From the NCBI GenBank assembly GCA_900696465.1, contig CAADGE010000048.1, positions 310,001-374,000 of the forward strand: a stretch of DNA of 64,000 nucleotides, written 5' to 3'. A program made the translations under genes and the position numbers. The notes below the pieces were generated by a model, which saw only the letters and a list, made by a program, of their open reading frames with translations, had not been told where the DNA came from and made no database searches. Below, one piece after another: positions 38,224-41,620 of this stretch (the first letter of the stretch is position 1; every line of letters starts with the position of its first letter). The DNA comes from an uncultured Planctomycetota bacterium (lineage in GTDB: Bacteria; Planctomycetota; Phycisphaerae; UBA1845; UTPLA1).

Positions 38224-39786
38224 TCAGCGCAGGACTCTTTTACCGGTCGGCGGAGTGCCTTCGATGTGCTTGAGGGCTTCACGCAGCGCCGTGGGGGACC
38301 AGCTGATCACCACGTAGCCGTCCGTCACCTTCAAGGCAGGTCCCAGGATGCCGGCCTGCAAGTACCATACATGATCTTCGTCGCGGAGCACCTTTACCCG
38401 CACAAGGACCGTCTTGTTGCGCTCCGCCCGTTCGTCCAGATACTGACTCCAGGCATCGAGCAGCGCGTCAATCGCCATCCGCACGGCGCGCGGGTCGTTG
38501 ATTTCGATGGCCAGCGTTAACGCGAATGGTATCTTCAGCGGGTGCTCCGGATATTCGAAGATCACGACATTGTTGCCGAAGTGATCGATCAGACTCCCGC
38601 TGATGTCGATTCCCTTCTCCTGCTCCAGCCGTTCCCAGGCCGTCTGCCATTTGCGTACATTTGTTTCCGACTGCGAAGCAATCCAGGCGCGCGGAACGTT
38701 GTCCACCAGCCACCGCGTCGGTACCTGGAGGATGGCCATCCGCTTCGCATCCTTCGGAACGATGCTCAGATGGCGCGGCGCATAATCGGCCGGATCGCTG
38801 TAACTCCGCAGCATATCCTGCCCCTCGCTGCGATAGCAGCGCCGCAGGGTCAGGGCTCGCCCGTCGGTACCGATGGACCACAGATCATGCGTCATGCGCT
38901 CCGCCTGCAGGGCTGCGACCACCCGGCGAACGCGATGATCCGCCACATCATCGAGCCGGTTGCGAAGCCGCAGGAAACCGATGAACCAATGGGCAAGAGA
39001 ATCGGCGGCACCGGTTCGCTCGACGGCCGAGCGGTACCACTCATCCGAGGACATGGCCGGCGACTTGCCCCGAGCCGATGCCACGATCCGCTCGAAGGCA
39101 CCTTCACCAAAGGTGACCACGAAGTACGAATCGACCCGACCCCATTCCCAGACGGCCCATGCAGCCATACGTTCGTCGGTCAACCGTTGATAGGCGACGC
39201 CGGAAACCTCGTGCCGCGAAAGCCGGGCCACTTCGCGATTTGTATATCGCCCCATGATGCGGTTGAGCTGCTCGAGCACAAGGCCGGATTCGCTGTCTGT
39301 GCGAAAGATCAGAGCTGCCTGCAGCCGATTCAGCCGCAGAATCTTGCTCGGTTGCTGCCCGGATTCGCCATCATCATCATCTGCAGGATCGACGAGCTTG
39401 GCGGAGACATCGAGCAACGCCATGGCATGTTCAAACTGACCCAGCAGCGGCAGGGCTGCCACGATGTCGGCATAGACCTGGCCTTCGCCCGGTATCATTC
39501 CCGCCGCATTGAGCATGCCGACCACGGCCGTTACCGAGACCACAAAGGGAACTTCCGCCGGAGCCGTGGTCGCAGGGCCGGAGGACGGACTGAGAAACCG
39601 GTACGGCTTGGCCACATAGACGACCATCGAATCGGCCGGGATCAGCTCTGTAATCGGTCCGGCCAAAAGGGGGTCTGCCAGCCAGGAGAAGCACGCGCAG
39701 CACACCAGGAAGCCGACGATGCCGGTCAATCTCGATTCTCGCGTTGGCTGCATCTTCTTGGAACCGCCCAGGTTCAACATGTTCAT
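38224..39786 (-). CDS. Exported protein resembling DUF3352, hypothetical
   Basis: A protein of about 520 residues with a signal peptide (SRLTGIVGFLVCCACFSW region, cleavage near LLAGP). The mature start is ITELIPADSMVVYVAKPY, like the 'LPADT.lyv.v' opening of DUF3352 proteins. Later segments LAHWFIGFLRLRNRLDD and FGNNVVIFEYPEHPLKIPFALTLAIEI repeat that family's pattern of evaluating beta-strand modules. The start is uncertain between 39798 (TTG), 39786 (ATG) and 39753 (ATG). No catalytic residues are visible. It is presumably periplasmic. Confidence 0.68.
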   Translation of the reverse strand: MNMLNLGGSKKMQPTRESRLTGIVGFLVCCACFSWLADPLLAGPITELIPADSMVVYVAKPYRFLSPSSGPATTAPAEVPFVVSVTAVVGMLNAAGMIPGEGQVYADIVAALPLLGQFEHAMALLDVSAKLVDPADDDDGESGQQPSKILRLNRLQAALIFRTDSESGLVLEQLNRIMGRYTNREVARLSRHEVSGVAYQRLTDERMAAWAVWEWGRVDSYFVVTFGEGAFERIVASARGKSPAMSSDEWYRSAVERTGAADSLAHWFIGFLRLRNRLDDVADHRVRRVVAALQAERMTHDLWSIGTDGRALTLRRCYRSEGQDMLRSYSDPADYAPRHLSIVPKDAKRMAILQVPTRWLVDNVPRAWIASQSETNVRKWQTAWERLEQEKGIDISGSLIDHFGNNVVIFEYPEHPLKIPFALTLAIEINDPRAVRMAIDALLDAWSQYLDERAERNKTVLVRVKVLRDEDHVWYLQAGILGPALKVTDGYVVISWSPTALREALKHIEGTPPTGKRVLR

Positions 39787-39931
39787 GGATTGGCTCAACC
39801 GCAGGCAGTCGAAACGCTCAGGCGTAAGACCGCTTTCTGCCCGATGGCTTTATTCAACGTGGAGTATACGTTGCCCTCACGGCAGCGACAATCCGCAGCC
39901 GATTCGAAGACATGCAGTATGAAAGGGGCTT

Positions 39932-40741
39932 TCATTCAGAAGAATCGTCGCCAAGTCGCAGACCGCGAACCAGCGCTTCCAGATCCTCCGGGTTCGGACG
40001 GTCCTGTACGCGTGCCGATTGCCGCTTCCAGAGTATCTGACGGTCGCGAGCGACGAGAACATGCGCTGGCAGCGCGACATCCTTCTTGCCCGGGCCGCCG
40101 CCCTCATGGAGCAAGCCGTACTTTCGGAGGATGTCTCCCGACTCATCTGCAAGAATGCTGAAGCCCAGCTTACGATTTTGAACGACCTCGCGAGACCGGG
40201 AAGGGGGGTCCACGCTCACAGCCAGCACACGCCCGCCGCGCCGCTGAAGCTCTTCATTCACTGCCCGGAGCCCGACGAGCTCCGTCACACAGCTCACTCA
40301 CCAGTAACCACGGTAGAACACCAGCAGTGCGGGGCCCGAAGCAACCACTTCATCCAGCGACACCGCGCGGCCTTCTTCGTCGGGAAGGGTGAACGCTGGT
40401 GCGATCGTCAGCGACTCGAACGTTTGCGACGGCGGCAGCTTGAGCCCCCAGAAGAAGATGTACGCAAAGAGGATGGTCAACAGGGGGGATAACAGGCCAA
40501 TGCCGCGAATCGCAAGCCGGTGATCTCGAGCGACGGCACGGATTCCCAGCATGGAACCCAGAAACATCAGCACGAAAGCCGGGGCTCCCGATGCGCGTAT
40601 CCATGAATTGGCCATCAGGGCCATGTAGAGCATCGGGCCCCCGATTGTCAGCAGGAGACCGAGGATTGAGATGCCCAGGGCTTGTCGTTGTTTCGGTCGG
40701 CCCGACGTCTGCGCCACATAATCCCGAGGCGTAGTGCTCAT
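39932..40741 (-). CDS. Membrane-anchored peroxiredoxin-like selenoprotein (in-frame TGA read as Sec)
   Basis: This is one continuous frame if the TGA at 40300-40298 encodes selenocysteine, giving 269 residues. Three hydrophobic helices (about 22-45, 52-70 and 82-104) are followed by an AhpC/TSA thioredoxin-fold domain: PAFTLPDEEGRAVSL, then ALLVFYRGYW-Sec148-V-S-C151. The fold continues with strands RVLAVSVDPPSRS, KLGFSILADESGD and ALPAHVLVARDRQILW. In relatives the redox site is YRGxWCPxC, so the TGA falls exactly on the first Cys, giving UxxC. A SECIS-like hairpin lies 14-32 bases after the TGA. The alternative is a nonsense mutation (TGC to TGA). The start could be 40753 or 40741. Confidence 0.75.
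40266..40284 (-). promoter_or_regulatory. Candidate bacterial SECIS hairpin
   Basis: On the minus strand CGGAGC pairs with GCTCCG (6 bp) around TCGTCGG. If the U-G closing wobble forms, the apical loop is CGUCG with G at its second position. The loop begins 20 bases after the TGA. Bacterial SECIS elements sit just downstream of the Sec codon inside the coding sequence and carry a G early in the apical loop, which this fits. Confidence 0.5.
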
Positions 40742-40852
40742 GCATGCCATCATACTCAGCCGTTTCAGCACGTGCAATCGAGTTCGTCGGGCGGAAGGGG
40801 TTGTCTCGCCGCCGGAAATTTGTTTCGCGCAGCAGATCGTGGATGTGGGAAT

Positions 40853-40966: not shown

Positions 40967-41620
40967 ATGAAAAGCAGACACCGCAAGGAACAGACCCATA
41001 CGAGCAACGTACTGGTTTCTCGAATCGGCAGAAATTGCCGAAAGACTCGGCGGGGGGGTCGCATCTCCGCAAATCGAGCCGGCGACGCGCATCTGATCCA
41101 GCAGATCTTCCCGATGCTGTCAGGCAGGACCTCGCGCTACGGCGTCGGCATCTGCGTTGCGAGTTGTCGCCGTCTCGGCGATCAGGTCGATTGGTCCGTG
41201 TCGCAGCTCGTCAGGCACGCAGCCAGACCCGGGGAGCGACCGACTGGCGCATTCTTCGAATCGGCGGATTGTGTCGAGGTCGCGCGAATGGTCGGCGGAC
41301 TGGCTCATGCCGATCGCCTGCGAATCGCCCAGGCCTTGGCCTGCGGTGCTGTTTCACACCACGATCTTGAGCAGGCCATCAAGCTCAAGACGGGCCCTCT
41401 GTACCACCATCTGCGCGTATTGGAGCGGGCCGGCGTCCTGCAAATTCGCGGACGAAACGAATACGTCCTCTCGCAGGCCGGAAGACTCATGCTCATGGCC
41501 GTCACGGTACTCACGGCACAGGGCACAACCCGGCAGGGTCATGTGCATCCACCGCGAAAAGCACGTACAGCGACTCGGAAGAGCGTTCGAAGAGCCGCAT
41601 CCTCGGGCATAGCGGCTTGA
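40967..41620 (+). CDS. ArsR-like winged-helix transcriptional regulator
   Basis: A 217-residue protein whose central part (about residues 103-185) is a winged helix: VARMVGGLAHADRLRIAQAL, then the recognition region HHDLEQAIKLKTGPLYHHLRVLERAGVL and a wing GRNEYVLSQAGR. No Cys-based metal site is evident. The first 80 residues are basic and look non-conserved, so the true start may be later; the ATG at 40967 has only a weak site. It is divergent from the selenoprotein gene, so it could control it, and itself. Confidence 0.72.
   Translation: MKSRHRKEQTHTSNVLVSRIGRNCRKTRRGGRISANRAGDAHLIQQIFPMLSGRTSRYGVGICVASCRRLGDQVDWSVSQLVRHAARPGERPTGAFFESADCVEVARMVGGLAHADRLRIAQALACGAVSHHDLEQAIKLKTGPLYHHLRVLERAGVLQIRGRNEYVLSQAGRLMLMAVTVLTAQGTTRQGHVHPPRKARTATRKSVRRAASSGIAA

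Follow-up and report, generated by a model that had tools for sequence, protein, structure and literature searches.

The question raised by this locus is whether a TGA that separates two open frames on the minus strand of the window (the whole stretch of 64,000 nucleotides that was analysed, from an uncultured Planctomycetota bacterium) ends a gene or is read as selenocysteine (Sec). The frames 40298-40777 and 39932-40297 are directly contiguous and in phase across the TGA at 40300-40298, as an earlier note on this DNA had described, and the joined frame, 40741-39932, encodes 269 amino acids with this TGA as its sole interruption. The residues around it, ...ALLVFYRGYW-U-VSCVTEL..., form a UxxC site, and an AhpC-TSA match obtained by profile search (E=1.9e-25, residues 114-237, over the gathering score) spans the TGA. 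The predicted protein contains a single Cys, C151, besides the predicted Sec148. The Sec genes of the genome, the conservation of the TGA, the Cys found in a relative without selA and a covarying hairpin strongly support the proposal of the earlier note that the TGA encodes Sec in a UxxC motif, and the codon is almost certainly read in this way. Taken as a whole, the product is very probably a hairpin-directed Sec148 protein, with a three-helix anchor in the inner membrane and a peroxiredoxin (Prx)/thioredoxin-fold domain in the periplasm. The features are collected in Table 1.

Table 1. Features of the predicted selenoprotein gene, in window coordinates.
Feature	Position	Strand	Basis
Selenoprotein gene, 269 aa	39932..40741	-	Joining of ORFs, AhpC-TSA match, homologues
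Uncertain start codon: ATG 40741, or one of the ATGs/TTG upstream of it, as far as 40777			
Three transmembrane helices, residues 15-41, 53-72 and 76-99, no Cys	40445..40699	-	Hydropathy, positive-inside count, AlphaFold2 helices
Prx-like/AhpC-TSA redox domain, residues 114-250	39992..40402	-	Domain match, profile alignment, AlphaFold2, Foldseek
TGA codon, predicted Sec148	40298..40300	-	27 relatives and 27 other members of the phylum have TGA; two others and the more distant relatives have Cys
Cys151, only Cys, invariant, partner of Sec148 (UxxC)	40289..40291	-	Sequence and homologue alignment
SECIS-like hairpin, register B, CGGAGC-UCGUCGG-GCUCCG	40266..40284	-	Folding, compensatory changes, synonymous-shuffle test
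Pro225 (L-P-A), invariant, replaces Prx catalytic Arg, at position of ResA loop Pro	40067..40069	-	Alignments

Among the 60 related genomes searched, 27 encode a full-length homologue that has its TGA at exactly the same codon, so the TGA of the window is not there by chance. These homologues are 31-56% identical to the window protein and have the motif F-Y-R-G-x-W-U-x-x-C; the residues invariant in their alignment include Y143, R144, G145, W147, U148, C151 and P225. When the phylum was sampled evenly, the best 29 loci besides the window's own comprised 27 with TGA and two with Cys in the same column. More distant relatives retrieved by a pattern search (Acidobacteria, Bacteroidetes, Poribacteria and others) all carry FYRGYWCxxC, in a search that was biased against TGA forms because the site-spanning pattern had Cys at the Sec position. 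Alignment of homologues, which had been suggested earlier as a check, has shown that dozens of genomes share a TGA at this codon and that the homologues without Sec have Cys there. One genus (g160) offers a natural Sec/Cys pair, and with it a system for asking why selenium is kept: G170 possesses the TGA and the hairpin together with selA, and G201 has the Cys form, with no selA match and no hairpin. The contrast matches what would be expected of Sec loss.

The earlier note had made its proposal depend on the presence of selA, selB, selC and selD in the same genome, and all four are there. In this genome, which is 96.8% complete, a profile search placed selB over the cut-off at C48:395179, adjoined by selA at C48:397206; both genes lie on the contig that carries the window. 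The tRNA-Sec, whose anticodon is TCA, scored 70 bits. The selD gene (L010, C29:13896-14816) has an in-frame TGA of its own, in the context ASCAG-U-AGKLP, and apparently encodes a Sec-containing SelD; downstream of that TGA is a hairpin whose loop contains GGUC. A search of the genome for the formate dehydrogenase alpha subunit gave no TGA-containing form. Among the 27 genomes with a TGA homologue, selA was found in 26; the remaining one is an assembly that is 75% complete.

The hairpin downstream of the UGA has the small, G-holding apical loop of a bacterial SECIS, lying in the window about 20 nt beyond the UGA. It occurs in two registers, and the window's own clade does not share the register of most relatives. 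Most relatives have register A (CUCCG-AGGUCU-CGGAG), with an apical loop that resembles the SECIS loop of E. coli fdhF, and register B (GGAGC-UCGUCGG-GCUCC) is found in the window's clade and in some distant members. The loop centres of the two registers are about 3.5 nt apart, a shift that correlates with whether R/Q or V is encoded (alignments A2 and A3), and it was by this residue that registers were assigned. Taking the better of the two registers, pairing reached 134/135, as against 90.4 +/- 3.8 in synonymous shuffles in which codons were drawn according to each gene's own usage and the better register was again taken each time; none of 2000 shuffles reached the observed value. Two pairs are altered on both sides in register A (GC to AU; CG to UA and GC) and two in register B (GC to CG; CG to GC), and shifting the partner strand breaks the pairing in both registers. 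The covariation score was reached by none of 500 column shuffles, but these ignore relatedness and the covariation counts are inflated by kinship of the sequences, so more weight falls on the double changes and on the slide control. The count for register A left out another stem register (loop GGU/GGC, for example in L097, L099 and L106) as well as L101 and L105/L109, and thereby favours the structure. An Rfam search with the hairpin gave no family match. In the mechanism that we propose, the UGA at codon 148 would be decoded as Sec by SelB and tRNA-Sec, steered by this hairpin within the coding sequence.

The three N-terminal membrane helices that had been proposed are real as judged by hydropathy and by AlphaFold2. 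In 27 of 28 close members, hydropathy places them at about -124, -96 and -68 from the Sec; in the remaining member, L034, the middle helix falls under the threshold. Lys and Arg are abundant in the N-terminus and the second loop and scarce in the first loop and in the stretch that follows helix 3, a distribution that, by the positive-inside rule, puts the N-terminus inside and the redox domain outside. It is thus likely that the redox domain faces outward, into the periplasm. The AlphaFold2 model, built from a shallow alignment (27 rows) with Cys in place of Sec, has a pLDDT of 93.7 and a pTM of 0.87, and its top ranks in Foldseek are PrxQ/Bcp proteins. Given that the helices are devoid of Cys, they would be an anchor rather than a DsbD-type electron conduit. 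The protein would accordingly be held in the inner membrane by its three helices, with the N-terminus inside and the Sec148-x-x-Cys151 site facing the periplasm.

The replacement of the Prx catalytic residues bears on the chemistry. When the protein is aligned by profile with Prx, Sec148 occupies the place of the Ser/Thr in the S/TxxC motif, and C151 that of the peroxidatic Cys. The canonical motif PxxxT/SxxC is replaced by FYRGxWUxxC, with Sec at the Ser/Thr position and Arg at the Pro position, and the catalytic Arg that precedes the late core strands in Prx is absent, the invariant Pro225 aligning there. The earlier name of peroxiredoxin therefore stands for the fold, which is PrxQ-like according to Foldseek, and does not stand for the active site, from which the catalytic Thr and Arg are missing. 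A thioredoxin/ResA-like site on a PrxQ scaffold favours thiol:disulfide exchange over peroxidase activity, and sequence comparison inclines us somewhat towards an activity of the thiol:disulfide type. Sec148 would then attack an oxidised substrate near the membrane, such as a disulfide; Cys151 would resolve the Sec148 intermediate as a selenenylsulfide; and a partner protein would re-reduce the Sec148/Cys151 site, there being no Cys in the membrane part through which electrons could pass. It is rather doubtful, although possible, that the protein acts as a membrane-bound peroxidase, in which Sec148 or Cys151 would reduce H2O2 or lipid hydroperoxides outside the membrane. Such an activity would suit the kinship with PrxQ/Bcp, the closest family in both fold and sequence, the position of C151 on the peroxidatic Cys and the fast reaction of Sec with peroxides, but it fits poorly with a UxxC site of the thioredoxin type, with Sec in place of the Prx Thr, and with an invariant Pro, as in ResA, in place of the catalytic Arg.

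Coding constraint bears on the other readings of the TGA itself. Three close pairs have dN/dS values of about 0.11, 0.06 and 0.17 downstream of the TGA and similar ones upstream, and low dN/dS on both sides indicates that translation continues beyond the TGA under strong constraint. The earlier argument that an intact downstream part speaks against decay has been borne out by these values, and the accumulated stops and frameshifts that decay would leave in relatives are not seen in any systematic form besides the TGA; at the C-terminal end, there is an additional TAG in one of the 27 relatives and an additional TGA in another. Under the standard code the frame would end at the TGA, leaving a decaying pseudogene or two separate proteins, but with the same TGA in dozens of genomes, constraint on both of its sides and Cys orthologues in existence, a true stop is extremely improbable, and the pseudogene reading was rejected on the conservation of the TGA and of the flanking coding constraint. 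Frames open through TGA would look alike if the codon stood for a different amino acid, Trp for example, through a genome-wide change of code or near-cognate readthrough; this is scarcely credible for a gene that itself ends with a TGA stop, whose column holds Cys in relatives without TGA, and which is accompanied by the full Sec machinery and a SECIS-like hairpin, and general stop readthrough was rejected on conservation. A sequencing or assembly error for TGC or TGT, imaginable in a draft genome of 48 contigs, has next to no probability and was rejected because 27 relatives, each assembled separately, have the same TGA and, downstream of it, a hairpin that is missing from the Cys orthologue L096.

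Reading the TGA as Sec places the protein beside selenoproteins already described. Papers on the Sargasso Sea and GOS metagenomes described UxxC Prx-like selenoproteins as distinct from TxxU Prx, and named the UxxC/UxxU PF00578 family Prx-like or Prx-like 1 (PMC1088965, PMC2398784); an inventory of 2026 has both PF00578 UxxC/UxxU and PF08534 UxxC (PMC13188914). With an AhpC-TSA match over the gathering score and a UxxC site, the window protein belongs to the Prx-like UxxC (PF00578) group, and it resembles the Prx-like thiol:disulfide oxidoreductase selenoproteins in its AhpC/TSA domain, in having Sec first in a thioredoxin-like UxxC, and in having CxxC homologues with Cys. Compared by description, three N-terminal helices are not mentioned for these proteins, nor are Planctomycetes named as carriers (PMC1088965, PMC2398784, PMC13188914). 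The claim of a new selenoprotein consequently holds at the level of the subfamily and not of the family, which was already known. A paper on planctomycetes reported selenoproteins in two strains, with redoxins absent from its main text (PMC4807772). A published description of the three-helix membrane form was not found in a literature search of incomplete coverage, and an earlier naming is possible.

Among NCBIfam models, none of which reached its cut-off, the best match is the SelL-related NF040769 (E=1.3e-16; 60.7 bits vs a 120-bit cut-off), which is matched by all 27 members; in the window protein the match lies in the active-site half and covers no membrane region. The closest solved fold and sequence are those of PrxQ/Bcp peroxiredoxins (PDB 2cx3, 2ywn, 3hjp), from which the window protein differs by Sec for Ser/Thr, Pro for Arg and its membrane anchor. 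Sec-containing Prx of the TxxU type, such as that of Eubacterium acidaminophilum, have the Prx fold and Sec in common with it, but there Sec replaces the peroxidatic Cys, whereas in the UxxC of the window it replaces Thr. The C/UxxC site and the LP(A/T)xxLI loop are shared with ResA/TlpA, and P225 matches the LPT loop of ResA. ResA/TlpA proteins also have a membrane anchor with an outward-facing redox domain, as predicted here, although the window protein has Sec, has three helices instead of one, and is overall nearer to PrxQ.

What is new here is the three-helix membrane form, its spread across the phylum and the two SECIS registers. It is quite possible, and we propose it tentatively, that these proteins constitute a phylum-wide, periplasmic membrane Sec subfamily with Sec for the Prx Thr which, together with Sec-SelD, helps to keep the Sec trait, and that the registers represent a SECIS moving along the coding sequence. 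The three-helix form would be an addition to the bacterial selenoproteome, and would locate selenium chemistry at the cell envelope in a phylum whose use of selenium has received little discussion. Annotation that takes the TGA as a stop splits the protein in two, and a widespread membrane redox protein is thus likely to be mis-annotated as a short membrane protein and a thioredoxin-fold fragment.

Just downstream on the same strand, 38224-39798 encodes a long protein with no Pfam match, which keeps its place next to the selenoprotein gene only in the four closest genomes. Upstream, a divergent ORF on the plus strand (40967-41620), with a weak ArsR-like winged-helix match below the cut-off, is shared by three genomes and is a possible regulator of the selenoprotein gene. 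Since these neighbours are kept in so few genomes, no pathway was inferred from the neighbourhood. A different Prx-like protein, without membrane helices, has two TGAs in a UxxU arrangement, FYRGHW-U-RY-U (L050 in G049). Weak matches with one TGA inside larger frames (G002:C1, G034:C72, G035:C19, G037:C56, G040:C64, G023:C4, G015:C1 and G038:C12) are possibly other thioredoxin-fold selenoproteins.
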